From: Rhodococcus wratislaviensis
Lineage (GTDB): Bacteria > Actinomycetota > Actinomycetes > Mycobacteriales > Mycobacteriaceae
Direction of reading: 5' to 3'
Assembly (NCBI RefSeq): GCF_900455735.1
Contig: NZ_UAUI01000024.1
Span: 186,001 to 250,000, forward strand
Length of the DNA stretch: 64,000 bases
In this document: one piece after another, positions 29,665 to 35,900 of the stretch
Layout of the letters: every line of letters begins with the position of its first letter
Numbering within the stretch: the stretch's first letter is position 1
Position numbers and translations under genes: made by a program
The notes under the pieces: generated by a model
What the model was told of the DNA's origin: nothing
The model's database searches: none
Seen by the model: the letters and a program-made list of their open reading frames with translations, nothing else

Positions 29665-29805
29665 GGTGTGTCACCTCGAGAAGTCGTGGATCCGAGGGGC
29701 GGTGTACCCCGCGAAGCCGGGCTCGTCACCCGCGGGCAGGGGGCGGGTACGGGGGAGTTGCCGGGAGCGATGGACAGCGTCGTCATCTGTGCCTCCCACG
29801 TAATG

Positions 29806-29816
29806 TTGTACAACAA
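29806..29816. promoter_or_regulatory. TTGTN3ACAA operator 3
   Basis: TTGTACAACAA, embedded in the 12-bp perfect palindrome TGTTGTACAACA (29804-29815), 142 bases upstream of the GntR start codon. Identical to the site at 22619-22629. Confidence 0.7.
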
Positions 29817-29913
29817 CATTACGCGTTGCGTATCGAGCGCTCGATGTGAACGGGGTTAGGGGGCAGCAAGACGATCCCTTTCTGCATCAATCTGGTCCGG
29901 ACTGACCTCCATA

Positions 29914-29964: not shown

Positions 29965-30008
29965 ACGTGCTCGCCGGCGCACCGTCAGTGATGCGCCGGC
30001 GAGCACGT
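29965..30008. terminator. Strong hairpin after the flavin reductase gene
   Basis: ACGTGCTCGCCGGCGCA (29965-29981) and TGCGCCGGCGAGCACGT (29992-30008) form a perfect 17-bp stem with a 10-base loop, nine bases beyond the flavin reductase stop. No T tract follows on either strand. Confidence 0.6.
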
Positions 30009-30017
30009 TCGCCCGGA

Positions 30018-30542
30018 TCAGAACAACCAGGGGACCTCGTCGTGACCGAAGTCGTGGAAGTCGCCGAACCGCCCCGAGTAGAACACCAGGCCGGTGCCCT
30101 CCCGGCAGCGCATGTCGGTGACCTCGCCGTAGAAGACGCGGTGGTCGCCGATGTCGTGGGCGCTGTGGACCCTGCATTCGAGCTGGGCCAGAGCATCTTT
30201 GATCAGCGGCAGCCCCGAGCGGCTGCGATCGCAGGGCAGGTCGTCGAATCGGGCGCCGCCCCGCGTGGCGAAGCGGCGGGCGAGAGCTTCCTGACGGGAG
30301 CCGAGGACGGAAACGGCGAACGAGCCCGCGGCTTCCACGGCCTCGGTGGTGCGGGAGCCGTGGGTGAGCGAGACGAGCAGGATTGCCGGGTCCAGGCTGA
30401 TCGAGGTCAGGGAGCTGATCGTCATGGCACTGGGGTCGCCGTCGCCGTCGTCGGCGCTGACGACGGCGACCCCGGTGGTGAACCGGCCCATGCTTCGCCG
30501 CATGTCCGTCGGGGTGGGGGCGTGGAATGCCGGAAGGGTCAT
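30018..30542 (-). CDS. Flavin reductase (HpaC-like), monooxygenase component
   Basis: NAD(P)H:flavin oxidoreductase of 174 residues with the flavin reductase-like FMN-binding split barrel: MRRSMGRFTTGVAVVSA, AMTISSLTSISLDPAILLVSL, SFAVSVLGSRQEALARRFA and the final GEVTDM...VFYSGRFGDF. It supplies reduced flavin to the HpaB-type oxygenase three genes upstream in the same operon, making a two-component monooxygenase. It is the last gene, followed by a strong hairpin. Confidence 0.9.
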   Translation of the reverse strand: MTLPAFHAPTPTDMRRSMGRFTTGVAVVSADDGDGDPSAMTISSLTSISLDPAILLVSLTHGSRTTEAVEAAGSFAVSVLGSRQEALARRFATRGGARFDDLPCDRSRSGLPLIKDALAQLECRVHSAHDIGDHRVFYGEVTDMRCREGTGLVFYSGRFGDFHDFGHDEVPWLF

Positions 30543-30549
30543 CGTGGGC

Positions 30550-30897
30550 CTACTTACTGTGGTACCGGACTTCGAAGGTGACGACGCCCTCGTCCGTGCT
30601 CCAGGGGCCGTGCGGCATGCCGGGCGGCCGGCAGGCGTACATTCCCGCGGTGAACGTCTCGCCGAGGGTCAGGTCGGTGAACGACCCCTCGAGGATGTAG
30701 ACCTCCTCCCAGAAGTCGTGCTTCTGCACGCCCATGGGAGTGGAATCGGCGCCGGGTTCGTAGCGCAGGATCCGGGTGGCGACGTTGCCTTCCGGGTCCT
30801 TGGCGAGGATGCGTTCGGTGATCTTCGGATCGTCACCCGGACATACCGTCCACTCGACGTCGGTGACCGGGAAGAATTCGAATTCGGGCTTGGCCAT
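30550..30897 (-). CDS. Cupin-domain protein
   Basis: Single-domain cupin of 115 residues. The fold is indicated by the two motif regions, PMGVQKHDFWEEVYILEG and YACRPPGMPHGPW; H59, E63/E64 and H107-type residues could bind a metal, although the first motif has only one histidine. It may be a small dioxygenase, isomerase or decarboxylase acting on the monooxygenase product. It sits between the oxygenase and reductase genes with 6-7 base gaps, so it is part of the same operon. Confidence 0.8.
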   Translation of the reverse strand: MAKPEFEFFPVTDVEWTVCPGDDPKITERILAKDPEGNVATRILRYEPGADSTPMGVQKHDFWEEVYILEGSFTDLTLGETFTAGMYACRPPGMPHGPWSTDEGVVTFEVRYHSK

Positions 30898-30903
30898 GAG
30901 GGT

Positions 30904-32361
30904 TTACTCGCTTTCCGCTTTGTAGCCGTCGGTGAACTGCTGCACAGCCGCGACGGCGCTGTCGTAGTCGTAGTTGCGGTACGTGTATGCACCCTTCACC
31001 ACGAAAGGGGCGCCGGCGTAGAACATCTCGTACTGCTGGTGTCGTCCGGCGAATTCGGATCCGATGATGTCCCAGGCCAGTTTGAAGAGCTTGACGCGCT
31101 CCTCGGACGGCACCCCGGGGGACTGGACGTAGTGTTCGATGTCCCGGGACGTCAGCGGGCTGGTGAGGTCCTTGACGCTCGACGGGAGTTGCAGCACACC
31201 GCCGCCGACGAGGTCGCGCAGGATCGCGATCACCCGCGGGTAGATCTCCGACTGCAGGCCCATCGACCCGTACAGGGCCTGCCTGCCCGGCAGCCACATC
31301 CCGGCCGAATCCGGCTCGGCGGTGTACTCGGCGGCCAGTACCGCGGAACGGACCCCGCTGACGAGTGCGGCGAGTTCGCCGAGCTTCTCCTGAACGCTGG
31401 GGATCTTGTCCACCCCGTTGACCTGGGTGACCCGGCGCGCCACGCCGGCAATGAATTCGAGCTTCGTCGCGAAGCGGATCTGGGCCTGCCAGTTGCCAAG
31501 AACGTGGGCGCCGGTCTCGAAGAACTGCCGGCGGACACCGGTGGTGTCGCGGTCCACGAACACGCGATCCCACGGCACGAGGACGTCGTCGAAGACGAGG
31601 AGCGAGTCGGGCTCGTCGTAGCGGCAGGTCAGTGGGTAGTCGAACGAGCTCGTCGCGGCCGGGATGTACGGGCGGCGAACGTACTGCTTGAGACCGGGAG
31701 CGTTGGTCGGGACCACGAACCCGACGGCGAAGTCCTTGTCGTCCGGGCCGAGCGGCTTGATGCACGAGACGAAGATTTCGTCGGCGATCGCCCCGCCGGT
31801 CGCCAGCATCTGCGAACCACGGATGACCAGGCCCTCGGGGGTCTCCTCGACCACACCGGCCTGCAGGTACTCACCCTCCCAGCCGGACGCCGTCGTCGCG
31901 CGTGAGACCTGCGGCGGGATGATCGCGTACGAGACGTAGAGGTTCTCGTCGAGCAGCCGCCGGTACAACTCGGAGACGTTCGCCCCGAAGTCGTGCCCAC
32001 CCTCGGCCGCGAACACCTCGGGATGCGCTGCGAACGCGGCGAGGAACGTCCCCACATGATCGGGGCTACGACCGATCCAGCCGTGCGTGTGCTTCGCCCA
32101 CCGCTCGATCGCCTCCCGCCGCTGCGCGAGCTCCTCCCGCGATCGGGGAATCGAGAACACCCGATTGGCCGCCTTCCCGGTTTCGGGTGCGACGTACTGC
32201 ATGCCGTTGGCCTCGTCCGCCGCCAGATCGAACATCTCGGCGATCGTCCGGGTCACGGGGGCGAAGGCCGGATGGGTGGTGACGTCGTCGATCTTCTCCC
32301 CGTCGACGAGCACTACGCGCCCGTCGTTCAGGGAGGCCAGGTAGTCGGCTCCGGTGCGCAT
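30904..32361 (-). CDS. HpaB/PvcC-family FADH2-dependent monooxygenase, large component
   Basis: Oxygenase of 485 residues related to 4-hydroxyphenylacetate 3-hydroxylase (acyl-CoA-dehydrogenase-like fold). Landmarks are MRTGADYLASLNDGRVVLVDG, the LYVSYAIIPPQVSRATTASG region, FDDVLVPWDRVFVDRD and the C-terminal KLAWDIIGSEFAGRHQQYEMFYAG. It uses reduced flavin from the HpaC-like partner to hydroxylate, or in some relatives to open, an aromatic or N-heterocyclic ring. The accompanying nitrilase-type hydrolase and DUF2848 protein do not belong to the 4-hydroxyphenylacetate route, so the substrate is probably different. Confidence 0.9.
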   Translation of the reverse strand: MRTGADYLASLNDGRVVLVDGEKIDDVTTHPAFAPVTRTIAEMFDLAADEANGMQYVAPETGKAANRVFSIPRSREELAQRREAIERWAKHTHGWIGRSPDHVGTFLAAFAAHPEVFAAEGGHDFGANVSELYRRLLDENLYVSYAIIPPQVSRATTASGWEGEYLQAGVVEETPEGLVIRGSQMLATGGAIADEIFVSCIKPLGPDDKDFAVGFVVPTNAPGLKQYVRRPYIPAATSSFDYPLTCRYDEPDSLLVFDDVLVPWDRVFVDRDTTGVRRQFFETGAHVLGNWQAQIRFATKLEFIAGVARRVTQVNGVDKIPSVQEKLGELAALVSGVRSAVLAAEYTAEPDSAGMWLPGRQALYGSMGLQSEIYPRVIAILRDLVGGGVLQLPSSVKDLTSPLTSRDIEHYVQSPGVPSEERVKLFKLAWDIIGSEFAGRHQQYEMFYAGAPFVVKGAYTYRNYDYDSAVAAVQQFTDGYKAESE

Positions 32362-32362
32362 G

Positions 32363-33040
32363 TCAGTGTCCTTCGGTGGTGTAGGAGTGGGCCAGGGTTC
32401 GGCCGTCGGGCAGGGTGAGTTCGAGGTCCCACCGGTGACCGGGGGTGAACTTGCCGTCGAGCAGCGGCAGGGTGCCTGCGAAGCAGAGCAGGTCCTCGCC
32501 GGTGTCGCCGAGCCGGTCGGCGAAGATCTGCAGAAGGTTCTGCGGTGTACGGAGATTGGCCAGGGTGCCGTCCTGATACAGGACCCCGTCGACCCACGAT
32601 CGGGCCCGGCACGCGTCCCAGTCGAACGACGCCCAGTCGGCGATCTCGATGACGGCCGGGCCTACCGGCTTCGGGCACGCCCGCTTCGAGTCGCCGATGT
32701 CGACGGTCTCGAGTTCGCGGTCGGTGTGGTCGGAGCCGACACCGAGGTAGTACCGCCCGCGGTGCCGCAGGATCACCGGCTCGACCTCGCCCGAGGTGTG
32801 CGTTCCTACGACGGGGGCCTGCGTCGCGGTGGTGACCGTCGCGATCTCGACGGGGTAGAACATCGGCACCTGTGCGGGCGGTGCGACTCCGATGGCCGCG
32901 AGCTCGTCGATGTGATGTTGCACCGCTGCTTCGTCCCGGCCGGTGTAGCCGGCTACCAGGGTTCGGCCGCTGCCGAAACGCAGGATCTCGGAGGAATCGA
33001 GGGTTTCGAAGGTGAGCACCTCCGTGGTGGCGCCGGTCAT
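32363..33040 (-). CDS. DUF2848-family protein
   Basis: Protein of 225 residues of the DUF2848 family, distantly related to fumarylacetoacetate hydrolase-type enzymes. Recognisable stretches are VAGYTGRDEAAVQHHIDELA, PVEIATVTT, GVGSDHTDRELE and KPVGPAVIEIADW, and the TLPLLDGKFTPG turn near the end. Function is unproven; an acylpyruvate-hydrolase-like or lyase step is possible. The ATG (33038-33040) overlaps the nitrilase stop as ATGA, and its own stop lies one base before the oxygenase start. Confidence 0.85.
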   Translation of the reverse strand: MTGATTEVLTFETLDSSEILRFGSGRTLVAGYTGRDEAAVQHHIDELAAIGVAPPAQVPMFYPVEIATVTTATQAPVVGTHTSGEVEPVILRHRGRYYLGVGSDHTDRELETVDIGDSKRACPKPVGPAVIEIADWASFDWDACRARSWVDGVLYQDGTLANLRTPQNLLQIFADRLGDTGEDLLCFAGTLPLLDGKFTPGHRWDLELTLPDGRTLAHSYTTEGH

Positions 33041-33849
33041 GAAAGGACCTTTCTGCGGTTGAGGAAGCTGTAGTCGTCGAGCCGGTCCCTCAGGATCGGG
33101 AACTCGGCGCGGGTGCGGTCGACCACGGCGGGGTCGATCTCGGCGATGGTGATGCCCTCGGACGAATCCGCCTCGGCGATCACCGTTCCCCACGGGTCGA
33201 CTATCCGGCTGTGGCCGCCGAGTTCGACGGAATTGTGTGTGCCGGTGGCGTTGCAGGCGATCACGAAGACCTGGTTGTCGACGGCGCGGGCCGAGGTCAG
33301 CAGCCGCCAGTGCTCCTTGCGGGCTTTCGGCCAGGCCGCAGGAACGATGACGAGTTGCGCTCCGGCCGAGACCAATTCGGTCCACAATCCGGGGAACCGC
33401 AGGTCGTAGCAGGTCGTGGCGGCGATCGGGCCGAACGGGGTGTCGGTGGTGTGGATCTGCGTCCCCGGCTGCACGAGCTGCGCTTCGAGGGAGTCGTATC
33501 CGAAAACGTGAACTTTGCTGTAGTGGTGGTGGACCTGTCCGTCGGGGCCGATCAGGACCGCCGTGTTGCGCAGCCTGCCCTCCTCGCCCTGTTCGACGAT
33601 GCTGCCGGCGTGGATGTAGCACTGCCGTTCGACGGCGACGGATGCCAGAACCTGGACGGTACCGCCGTCGAGAGTCTCCGCGGCGGCGGAGTAGTCGTCG
33701 AAGTGGTTGTATCCCACGCGCCACAGCTCGGGCAGAACGATGAGGTCGACTCGCTCGTCGAGTCCGGTCAGGAGGTTGCGTACGCGCTCGAGTCGATGCG
33801 CGGGGGTCTCGGAATCGGGGCTGGCCAGCTGAGCCAGGGCTATCTTCAT
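33037..33849 (-). CDS. Carbon-nitrogen hydrolase (nitrilase/omega-amidase family)
   Basis: Hydrolase of 270 residues with the full nitrilase-superfamily triad: E41 in VLPELW, K112 in YSKVHVFG and C147 in AATTCYDLRFP. These enzymes cleave non-peptide C-N bonds in amides, carbamoyl compounds or, rarely, nitriles; the CYDLRFP context resembles omega-amidase-like members. Inside an operon with a flavin monooxygenase it may remove ammonia from an amide formed by ring opening, which would explain why a C-N hydrolase is needed. Confidence 0.9.
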   Translation of the reverse strand: MKIALAQLASPDSETPAHRLERVRNLLTGLDERVDLIVLPELWRVGYNHFDDYSAAAETLDGGTVQVLASVAVERQCYIHAGSIVEQGEEGRLRNTAVLIGPDGQVHHHYSKVHVFGYDSLEAQLVQPGTQIHTTDTPFGPIAATTCYDLRFPGLWTELVSAGAQLVIVPAAWPKARKEHWRLLTSARAVDNQVFVIACNATGTHNSVELGGHSRIVDPWGTVIAEADSSEGITIAEIDPAVVDRTRAEFPILRDRLDDYSFLNRRKVLS

Positions 33850-33866
33850 GGGTTTCCTTCGTGCCG

Positions 33867-34511
33867 TTAGATATTCGGCTGTTTCATTGACTGCAGGGTG
33901 GTGTCGAGGTGTTCCCGCACCGCCTGTACCGCGGCGTGGGGATCACCTGCCGCTATCGCGTCGGCGATGGCGTGGTGCTCGACGAGAACCTGCTTCTTGC
34001 GGGTTTCGTCGGCCATGACGATGCGGATGCCCATCCGCATCTGGCGGTCCCGCAGCGAGCTGTAGAAGGTGTTCATCAGTGGATTGCCCGCCGCGCGGAT
34101 GATGGCCGTGTGGAATTCGAGGTCGTGCGCGATGAAGTCGACCGGGTCGGTGTCGTTCTCCTGCAGGTCCAGGAGAATGCGGAGCCGGTCCGGTACCAGG
34201 CCCGGCTGGGGCGCCACTTCGGTGACCGACCATTCCTCGACCACCCTCCGGGCCTGCATGATGGCTTCCACGTCACTGTCGGACAATGCCGGGATGAAGG
34301 CACCCTTGTGGGGCACTCGCCGGATGAAGCCTTCGGCCTCGAGGCGTAACAACGCCTCGCGCACCGGAGTTCGGGAAATTCCGGAGGACGCGGCGACCTG
34401 CGCTTCGGACAGAAACATCTCCTCGTCGCGGGGCAGGGTGATGATGGTGTTCTTCAGCCACTCGTAGGCCAGCTCCGGTGCCGTTGCCCCGGTGGTCTTC
34501 GATGTCGTCAT
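33867..34511 (-). CDS. GntR-family regulator, FCD subfamily
   Basis: Regulator of 214 residues. The winged helix spans LAYEWLKNTIITL to SRTPVREALLRLEAEGFIRRVPHKGAF, the FCD domain has FIAHDLEFHTAIIRAAGNP and VEHHAIADAI. It lies inside the operon, between the permease and nitrilase genes, 17 bases from the latter. A TTGTATACGA near-palindrome at 36090-36099, upstream of the permease, is a plausible target. The ligand is likely the imported compound. Confidence 0.9.
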   Translation of the reverse strand: MTTSKTTGATAPELAYEWLKNTIITLPRDEEMFLSEAQVAASSGISRTPVREALLRLEAEGFIRRVPHKGAFIPALSDSDVEAIMQARRVVEEWSVTEVAPQPGLVPDRLRILLDLQENDTDPVDFIAHDLEFHTAIIRAAGNPLMNTFYSSLRDRQMRMGIRIVMADETRKKQVLVEHHAIADAIAAGDPHAAVQAVREHLDTTLQSMKQPNI

Positions 34512-34532
34512 GGCTTGCCCCTTCGAGGAGAG

Positions 34533-35900
34533 TCAGGAGATGACGGACGCCGGCTTTTCCGGCGTCCGGGAGGCCGCCTCGTCGCCCACGGCCGCGAGAT
34601 CCACGGACTGCGTTTCCCGCGCGAGAAGTGAGGCGATCAGGGAGATGACTCCCATGGCGGCGAGGTAGGCACCGATGGCGTATCCGGTGCCGAACCGGGT
34701 GTAGAGCGCGATCGCGATGATCGGGGCCAGCGAGCCGGCGAGGACGGACGCGAGGTTGTAGGCCAGCGACACTCCGGAGTACCGGACCTCGGTGGGGAAC
34801 AGTTCGGAGAAGAACGCGCCGATCACGGCGCTGTACGCCGCGAAGATCAGCAGTCCCACCGCCACCGCGAGGGTGATCGCCGCCGGATTCTTCGTGTCCA
34901 GCAGAGCGAAGAACACGAACGCCCACACGATGGTGGCGGCGGACGCGCCGATGTAGATCGGTCGTCGGCCGATCCGGTCGGCGAGCACGGCGAACATCGG
35001 GATCGTCACCAGGGCGACGACCATACCGATCATGACGGCGTTCAATCCGGTGCTGCGCTCGAGTTCGAGGATCTGGGTGATGTAGGTGATGACGAACAGC
35101 GAGAAGATGTAGAAGCCGGCGTTCTCGCCGAAGCGGGTGAAGGCCGCGAGGAGGATCTGGCGCCAGTGTCCCCGGACGGCCGCTGCGAGCGGCATGCCCT
35201 TCTTCTCGGCGGTCGCGGTTTCCCGGGACTGCTCGAACAGCGGGGTCTCCGCGACGTACAGCCGCAGCACCAGGCCGATGATCACCAGCAGGGCCGACAG
35301 CCCGAACGCGATCCGCCATCCCCAGGACAGGAACGCGTCCTCCGACAGCACCGAACCGAGGACGGCGAGCACCCCGGCCGCCAGCAGGTTGCCCAGCGGC
35401 GGACCGAGATTGGGCCATGCGGACCAGAACGCCCGTCTCTTCGAGTCGCCGTGTTCGGAGACCAGCAGAACTGCCCCACCCCACTCGCCACCGAGGGCGA
35501 AACCCTGCACCAGCCGCAGAAGCACCAGGATCAACGGTGCGGCGACGCCGATCGAGGCGTACGTGGGCAGGAAGGCGATGAGGAAGGTCGACACTCCCAT
35601 GAGCATCAGGCTGGCGATGAGGGTGGCCCGCCGGCCTTTGACGTCCCCGTAGTGCCCGAGTACCGCGGCACCGAGGGGGCGCGCCACGAAGCCGACCGCG
35701 TAGGTGGCGAACGCGAGCATGGTGCCCACCAGGGGATCTTCGGTGGGGAAGAACAGCTTGTTGAACACCAGCGCCGCCGCAGTTCCGTACAGGAAGAAGT
35801 CGTACCACTCGACTGCTGTGCCGGCGAGGCTCGAACCTGCGATGACGGGCAGGCTGGTGTGTGGTCTGCGATTGATAGATTTGTTGTTGGCGGTTGCCAT
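34533..35900 (-). CDS. MFS transporter, metabolite:H+ symporter (MHS) family
   Basis: Permease of 455 residues with about 12 helices. The MHS pattern is clear: LAGTAVEWYDFFLYGTAAAL in TM1, GHYGDVKGRRATL between TM2 and TM3, EWGGAVLLVSEH, and ADRIGRRPIYIG in the second half. It is the first gene of the monooxygenase operon and probably imports the aromatic or heterocyclic acid degraded by it. It differs from the 2450-3841 permease in sequence and is not a recent duplicate. Confidence 0.92.
   Translation of the reverse strand: MATANNKSINRRPHTSLPVIAGSSLAGTAVEWYDFFLYGTAAALVFNKLFFPTEDPLVGTMLAFATYAVGFVARPLGAAVLGHYGDVKGRRATLIASLMLMGVSTFLIAFLPTYASIGVAAPLILVLLRLVQGFALGGEWGGAVLLVSEHGDSKRRAFWSAWPNLGPPLGNLLAAGVLAVLGSVLSEDAFLSWGWRIAFGLSALLVIIGLVLRLYVAETPLFEQSRETATAEKKGMPLAAAVRGHWRQILLAAFTRFGENAGFYIFSLFVITYITQILELERSTGLNAVMIGMVVALVTIPMFAVLADRIGRRPIYIGASAATIVWAFVFFALLDTKNPAAITLAVAVGLLIFAAYSAVIGAFFSELFPTEVRYSGVSLAYNLASVLAGSLAPIIAIALYTRFGTGYAIGAYLAAMGVISLIASLLARETQSVDLAAVGDEAASRTPEKPASVIS

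Follow-up and report, generated by a model that had tools for sequence, protein, structure and literature searches.

The window analysed here is a stretch of 64,000 nucleotides from the 7.78 Mb genome of Rhodococcus wratislaviensis (contig NZ_UAUI01000024.1, positions 186,001 to 250,000), and it carries an operon that includes a gene for a protein of the DUF2848 family. The seven genes of the operon follow one another in the same direction on the minus strand, from position 35900 down to 30018 (Table 1). The order permease, GntR regulator, C-N hydrolase, DUF2848 protein, oxygenase, cupin and flavin reductase, proposed in an earlier note, is confirmed by the open reading frames (ORFs) and by Pfam, in which each of the seven genes has a family match of its own. 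Intergenic gaps measure 1 to 21 bp, the C-N hydrolase and DUF2848 genes share a 4-base ATGA overlap, and an inverted repeat stands directly downstream of the flavin reductase gene, the last of the operon.

Table 1. Features of the DUF2848 operon, with predicted roles and Pfam scores
Feature	Position	Strand	Evidence
MFS metabolite:H+ symporter family permease, predicted ring-acid uptake	34533..35900	-	MFS_1 107 bits
GntR/FCD transcriptional regulator	33867..34511	-	FCD 88 bits, GntR 44 bits
Nitrilase-superfamily C-N hydrolase, predicted 2-oxoglutaramate (omega-)amidase	33037..33849	-	CN_hydrolase 183 bits
DUF2848 metalloenzyme of the FAH superfamily, predicted to act as tautomerase/hydratase on the ring (lactam) after hydroxylation or on its open form	32363..33040	-	PF11010 223 bits
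HpaB-like flavin monooxygenase of group D, predicted to hydroxylate the ring (as a pyrrole-2-carboxylate 5-monooxygenase or similar)	30904..32361	-	HpaB_N 305 bits, HpaB 219 bits
Small ChrR/KdgF-like cupin, predicted ring-opening/ketonising enzyme (rival reading: ring-cleaving dioxygenase)	30550..30897	-	Cupin_7 39 bits
Flavin reductase, predicted supplier of reduced flavin to the oxygenase	30018..30542	-	Flavin_Reduct 147 bits
Inverted repeat, likely terminator	29965..30008		17-bp arms, 100% complementary, 10 nt between

A conserved gene set with exchangeable enzymes

The operon association goes beyond chance. A scan of species genomes with the DUF2848 protein gave 492 confirmed candidates, of which the 80 best loci were compared, so the counts describe close relatives of the window protein and are no survey of the whole family. 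Homologues were counted by BLAST bit-score thresholds within 8.5 kb of the DUF2848 gene; ORF calling, which is rough in GC-rich DNA, served to pick neighbour genes for Pfam. The closest named loci belong to a Rhodococcus metagenome-assembled genome, Rhodococcus jostii and R. koreensis. The HpaB-like oxygenase, the reductase and the cupin occur together at 56 of the 80 loci, and a nitrilase joins them at 51 of those 56 (51/80 overall). A flavin reductase homologue accompanies every one of the 56 HpaB loci, while the cupin is present at 69/80 loci, including all 66 that carry either of two oxygenase types (see below); permease homologues are found in many of the operons, not all. The neighbour set is kept across phyla, with versions in other bacteria and in one archaeon. 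Weaker nitrilase-like ORFs (32-34%) were seen at L029, L058 and L087, and contig ends interrupt loci L023 and L075.

The cupin profile was also run against 198 sampled genomes of the phylum, the window's own included (in larger genomes, the best 23 first-look candidates were scored). At E <= 1e-20 it was found in two of them, the own genome and one other, in which the cupin has DUF2848, MFS, GntR and a 29% nitrilase as neighbours and the locus gave no match to the oxygenase queries. Viral contigs yielded 19 pattern matches of which none was confirmed, and E. coli genomes gave no DNA match. The genome of the window holds a second DUF2848 locus on contig C25 (L129:5006-8729), with MFS, GntR, a partial (65-residue) nitrilase match and no oxygenase match; a similar gene set, plus a cupin, occurs in another actinobacterium (L128).

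The oxygenase itself is exchangeable. At 10 of the 80 loci a flavin adenine dinucleotide (FAD) monooxygenase of family PF01494 stands with the cupin instead of HpaB (assigned by Pfam at L049, L090 and L058, the other seven being BLAST matches to these), and at the thresholds used the two enzymes occur together at none of the 80. On the DUF2848 tree (106 rows) the PF01494 loci fall at several places and require 7 label changes, at least three of them forced by well-supported branches; the label is still clustered (7 changes against a shuffled mean of 9.7), and the long branches L090 and L058 are placed with uncertainty. These repeated changes suggest that the swap between HpaB and PF01494 probably happened more than once. 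As an identity for the PF01494 stand-in, 2,6-dihydroxypyridine hydroxylase was rejected: at E 1e-6, DhpH of plasmid pAO1 had no match but itself in the loci fetched. A second NMT1/THI5-like protein is encoded near the PF01494 oxygenase at 7 of these 10 loci (L049:10764-11696 and similar), and another NMT1/THI5-like protein is also present at most of the ten.

A third hydroxylase type may serve the haloarchaeon Natrinema gelatinilyticum, in which a stretch of about 5 kb holds DUF2848, cupin and nitrilase together with CoxG and XdhC; within 18 kb lie two molybdenum hydroxylase subunits, an aldehyde dehydrogenase, an ornithine-cyclodeaminase-family protein and a DAO protein. All three hydroxylase types belong to groups that work on aromatic or heteroaromatic rings. 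That three unrelated hydroxylases share one core speaks for a pathway that starts with hydroxylation of the ring.

The amide hydrolase is exchanged as well. At the proteobacterial loci L103, L104 and L105, and likewise at L098, an AS-type amidase replaces the nitrilase beside reductase, HpaB and cupin. Fourteen plasmid regions had DUF2848 or HpaB matches (L103-L110 and L119-L124): 11 are annotated and bear DUF2848 (in L124 under the name hypothetical protein), L106 and L107 carry no annotation and L108 lacks DUF2848. An amidase lies near DUF2848 in 10 of the 11; the remaining one, L120, has an oxoprolinase directly next to DUF2848, a hydantoinase A/B (HyuAB-type) protein of 1192 aa. Elsewhere, DUF2848 stands beside a TRAP permease and a full set of the 5-oxoprolinase proteins PxpA, PxpB and PxpC (L091 and, with the same set, L100) or beside PxpB and PxpC (L096). 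Oxoprolinase homologues were found at L089, L091, L101 and L120, and D-glutamate cyclase homologues at eight DUF2848 loci (L091, L096, L097, L101, L102, L119, L120 and L121), with family PF07286 confirmed by Pfam for L119. Amidases, oxoprolinases and D-glutamate cyclase act on 5-oxoproline-like lactams or amides, and hydrolysis of such a bond is the theme common to the exchanged partners. That oxygenase and amide hydrolase are exchanged separately argues that hydroxylation and amide or lactam hydrolysis are the fixed chemistry of the system, which strongly supports the logic suggested in the earlier note, oxygenation followed by amide hydrolysis.

Some of these loci seem to form a group of their own: at L091, L096, L100 and L119-L121 (rhodobacterial and related), DUF2848 is combined with a TRAP transporter and PxpABC, oxoprolinase or amidase, a D-glutamate cyclase homologue is present in most and no oxygenase was seen, and they probably represent a 5-oxoproline-type pathway in its own right. 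Homologous DUF4286 or hypothetical proteins recur in DUF2848-amidase clusters (L109:10059-10700, L122:4800-5519, L124:9059-9688); those of L109 and L122 had no Pfam match at E 1e-5.

Folds and active sites of the operon enzymes

DUF2848 has, according to its model, the fold of the fumarylacetoacetate-hydrolase (FAH) superfamily. The AlphaFold2 model, built from 55 sequences, is of high confidence (pLDDT 93.6, pTM 0.91); Foldseek placed it in this superfamily (best E 1.8e-08, probability 1.00), and VIA-align matched 201 residues to fumarylpyruvate hydrolase 6j5y, the best structural match by Z (Z 20.9, rmsd 3.2), with FAHD1 at Z 19.6. The likeness to 6j5y, FAHD1 and HpcE covers almost the whole chain, although identity is 9-19% among the structural matches listed and DUF2848 is a separate Pfam family. 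At the level of sequence, the single protein had no match among solved structures up to E 1, and its profile found weak hits (E 0.015) of which the two best are FAH-family chains. Residues invariant in 55/55 rows include H43, E46, E85, E87, D104, R108 and K119. We take H43 and E46 to be the FAH His-Glu dyad, E85, E87 and D104 the metal triad and K119 the catalytic lysine, an assignment made by motif rather than by residue superposition. An intermediate resembling a 2-oxo acid would suit this superfamily, whose enzymes act on 2-oxo acids and on the enols of such acids. No text naming DUF2848 was found in the literature searched; the family, described in the earlier note as having no firm function, now has a structural lead and a predicted role.

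The HpaB-like oxygenase belongs by its HpaB_N and HpaB domains, and by the flavin reductase gene alongside, to the two-component monooxygenases of group D. It aligns in register with HpaB of Thermus thermophilus (283 bits), in which Arg100, Tyr104 and His142 are described as binding the phenol hydroxyl and Thr198 as holding the substrate carboxylate (PMC10537072). The first three correspond to R98, H102 and Y145 of the window protein, so that the Tyr/His pair is swapped, and the Thr198 position is a lysine in actinobacterial rows and Gln or Thr elsewhere. H102 and Y145 are each found in 70 of 74 aligned rows of at least 350 aa. Once the rows of the window itself (L001, L019, L021) and its own-genome paralogues (L002-L005) are removed, the swapped pair is present in 67/67 rows, many of them close relatives, whereas the paralogues L002 and L003 retain the usual Tyr/His. 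With the swap in all these rows, this oxygenase family has lost the exact phenol-binding arrangement. One of the 67 rows with the His/Tyr signature is a Rhizobium plasmid HpaB with no DUF2848 nearby (L108:7995-9476), whose neighbours are annotated as L-asparaginase, chitin deacetylase and hypothetical proteins.

Models of 4-hydroxyphenylacetate hydroxylase score below their cut-offs (TIGR02309, 357.5 bits against 480.2; TIGR02310, 286.5 against 885.2), even though 4-hydroxyphenylacetate hydroxylases are its nearest sequence relatives among solved chains, and Pfam finds no extradiol dioxygenase, aldehyde dehydrogenase or decarboxylase among the seven genes. Hydroxylation of 4-hydroxyphenylacetate was rejected on the swapped pair and the TIGR scores, and the earlier view that the operon does not serve 4-hydroxyphenylacetate degradation holds. 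The window oxygenase thus resembles HpaBC (4-hydroxyphenylacetate 3-monooxygenase) in family and cofactor system and departs from it in the exchanged Tyr and His and in its operon context.

Glu-Lys-Cys is the catalytic triad of nitrilases, and in a 70-row alignment of the C-N hydrolase E41 is kept in 70/70 rows, K112 in 68/70 and C147 in 69/70. All 10 NCBIfam models listed score under their cut-offs, and mouse Nit2 (2w1v) scores 133 bits. In a plasmid search (30 listed of 1147 matching records), the top matches listed are an Embleya copy, presumably an orthologue from the same operon, the operon copy of Arthrobacter StoSoilB13 and the Natrinema copy. Next by bits, among the matches listed, come Arthrobacter and Paenarthrobacter plasmid carbon-nitrogen hydrolases (36-37%, 181-188 bits), and a haloarchaeal hydrolase is also listed (37% identity, 157 bits). 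The relative on pAO1, one of these plasmids (36% over 266 aa, 182 bits), is encoded two places after dhpH (L125:9965-10840), the position of the 2-oxoglutaramate amidase NIT in a pAO1 gene list (PMC10494377), and the activity of NIT is reported as shown (PMC6214936). By this kinship the C-N hydrolase is predicted to be a 2-oxoglutaramate (omega-)amidase. NIT is likewise a nitrilase-superfamily enzyme that acts last, after a flavin monooxygenase on an N-ring; the pAO1 operon differs in its 2,6-dihydroxypyridine 3-monooxygenase and PF04199 cyclase, and no DUF2848 is listed around NIT. Among the fetched loci, at E 1e-6, the pAO1 PF04199 cyclase and a pAO1 cupin had no homologue but themselves.

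In the cupin, R42, H60, E64, E65, R90, H96 and E109 are invariant in 34/34 rows. Its model (pLDDT 94.5) matches TM1459, ChrR, KdgF and RemF, proteins of several functions, so the fold fits a ring-opening isomerase as well as a dioxygenase. KdgF has a ring-opening role. LumY is described as a cupin hydratase in another heterocycle pathway (PMC12746152).

A predicted route from an N-ring acid to 2-oxoglutarate

We consider it likely that the operon oxidises a small N-ring acid to an amide and then to a central metabolite. We cautiously favour 2-oxoglutaramate as the amide intermediate, and pyrrole-2-carboxylate is a credible candidate for the substrate, though one that we put forward tentatively. 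The MFS carrier, which scores just under the cut-off of TIGR00883 (429.8 bits against 443.45), would import the substrate, a small carboxylic acid with an N-heteroaromatic ring and most likely pyrrole-2-carboxylate. The HpaB-like oxygenase, given reduced flavin by the reductase, would then hydroxylate the carbon beside the nitrogen, C5, to yield 5-hydroxypyrrole-2-carboxylate, a tautomer of a dehydro-5-oxoproline lactam. The FAH-fold DUF2848 protein and the small cupin could then isomerise, hydrate and open the lactam to 2-oxoglutaramate, with either division of these steps between them conceivable, and the nitrilase-type omega-amidase would release 2-oxoglutarate and ammonia; GntR may regulate the set. 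At physiological pH 2-oxoglutaramate is described as mostly the closed lactam (PMC5485471), so catabolic flux would profit from a ring-opening enzyme. We infer the substrate, the product and every reaction from gene content, conservation, fold and kinship, and the pyrrole-2-carboxylate route is the best reading in that it is the simplest to use all the operon enzymes and needs none extra to reach 2-oxoglutarate.

A precedent exists in the genus. The components of the pyrrole-2-carboxylate monooxygenase of Becker 1997 are reportedly of about 54 and 18.7 kDa, values matched by the 53.3 and 18.8 kDa predicted for the window oxygenase and reductase, as they would be by many HpaB/HpaC pairs. A review lists a Rhodococcus two-component FAD monooxygenase for pyrrole-2-carboxylate (EC 1.14.13.130) in group D, the class of HpaB (PMC6165268). 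The likeness extends to group, two-component make-up, genus and reported component sizes. Literature searches on pyrrole-2-carboxylate with monooxygenase or Rhodococcus returned no gene report among titles and abstract starts, and one on 5-hydroxypyrrole-2-carboxylate found nothing.

As to ring size, the links to 5-oxoprolinase, to D-glutamate cyclase and to 2-oxoglutaramate amidase point to an acid with a five-membered ring, while six-membered rings stay in play through the kpi cluster for 4-hydroxypyridine and the molybdenum-hydroxylase variant. Of the earlier proposal of a pyridine-type N-heterocycle pathway, the general logic is supported; a pyridine-type ring is a candidate, less favoured by the partner enzymes than a five-membered one. 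A broader generalisation, which we hold more tentatively still, is that DUF2848 constitutes a new class of FAH-superfamily enzymes that takes five-membered N-ring acids, once hydroxylated or oxidised (candidate substrates being 5-oxo-pyrroline-2-carboxylate or cyclic 2-oxoglutaramate), to an open or hydrolysable form. It could be the fixed hub of a plug-in pathway that bacteria and haloarchaea complete with a hydroxylase acting earlier, drawn from three unrelated types, and an amide or lactam hydrolase acting later, drawn from four.

Several observations weigh against the pyrrole-2-carboxylate route. (i) The gene set is incomplete at places: 14 of the 80 loci have neither oxygenase at threshold (one, L075, has an HpaB start at the contig end), L027 and L053 have no nitrilase nearby, and a Burkholderia cenocepacia locus with reductase, HpaB, cupin and DUF2848 (L107) gave no match to the nitrilase or AS amidase queries. 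At some loci DUF2848 is found with amidase, 5-oxoprolinase or nitrilase and no oxygenase, suggesting that the entering substrate there differs or is already oxidised. (ii) At L025, HpaB is accompanied by a weak 29% PF01494 match about 4 kb away, below threshold. (iii) The C-N hydrolase shares only 36% identity with the known amidase, and the Rhodococcus pyrrole-2-carboxylate monooxygenase was likened to the window enzyme by a review's listing and by component sizes, not by sequence. (iv) The closest solved relatives of the PF01494 stand-in are PnpA and the pyridine enzyme HspB, and the Natrinema molybdenum hydroxylase, about 5 kb from DUF2848, is tied to it by neighbourhood. Molybdenum hydroxylases usually attack electron-poor azine carbons, which suits pyridines better than pyrrole. 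(v) The same types of parts, a PF01494 monooxygenase, a ring-opening enzyme, a deformylase and an FAH hydrolase, are described for the kpi 4-hydroxypyridine pathway of Arthrobacter sp. IN13 (PMC7356986).

The last two points belong to the strongest alternative, a substrate with six members in its N-ring, such as a hydroxypyridine or a pyridine acid. By a kpi-like logic, the oxygenase would make a dihydroxypyridine, the cupin would be a ring-cleaving dioxygenase, the C-N hydrolase would remove formate or ammonia and DUF2848 would cleave an acylpyruvate. We judge this rather unlikely, even though the cupin retains His/Glu/His candidate ligands and DUF2848 has an H43xxE46 dyad and metal triad typical of FAH C-C hydrolases, along with a fumarylpyruvate hydrolase as its top structural match by Z. 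The scheme does not explain why DUF2848 repeatedly has 5-oxoprolinase and D-glutamate cyclase as partners; an obligate dioxygenase step would not lead one to expect DUF2848 with an amidase and neither cupin nor oxygenase; and the fold matches of the cupin single out no dioxygenase. The kpi cluster shares a flavin monooxygenase, a C-N hydrolase and an FAH enzyme with the window operon; it differs in its amidohydrolase-family ring-opening dioxygenase, in a deformylase that is an alpha/beta-hydrolase where the window nitrilase resembles 2-oxoglutaramate amidase, and in an FAH enzyme of PF01557, and the text of the paper mentions no cupin, while the part of its table consulted gives neither HpaB nor DUF2848 (PMC7356986).

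Less probable again is another amide or lactam compound, such as a substituted 5-oxoproline, a hydantoin or an aromatic amide, on which the oxygenase would modify a side group and the ring would not be heteroaromatic. Speaking for it are DUF2848 loci that combine a transporter with an amidase or 5-oxoprolinase and lack an oxygenase, and also the second DUF2848 locus of the own genome; against it, three unrelated hydroxylases at one pathway position are of kinds used on (hetero)aromatic rings. An HpaBC enzyme that hydroxylates 4-hydroxyphenylacetate or another simple phenol, among unrelated neighbours, is very improbable, since the TIGR02309 score and the closest solved chains that favour it are set against a score below the cut-off, a His/Tyr swap in every retained row where paralogues L002 and L003 keep Tyr/His, and neighbours kept across phyla.

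If the pyrrole-2-carboxylate route is correct, DUF2848 gains a fold and a testable role, and candidate genes become available for pyrrole-2-carboxylate breakdown, an activity met as an EC number without a gene in the literature consulted. Unrelated oxygenases and amide hydrolases exchanged around a fixed core would make a clean case of pathway logic read from genomes, and the pathway is testable with few purified proteins and small-molecule substrates.

Beyond the likely terminator of the operon, a perfect 11-bp inverted repeat with 3 nt between its arms (29799-29823) lies upstream of another GntR gene (29664-28969) and is a possible operator.

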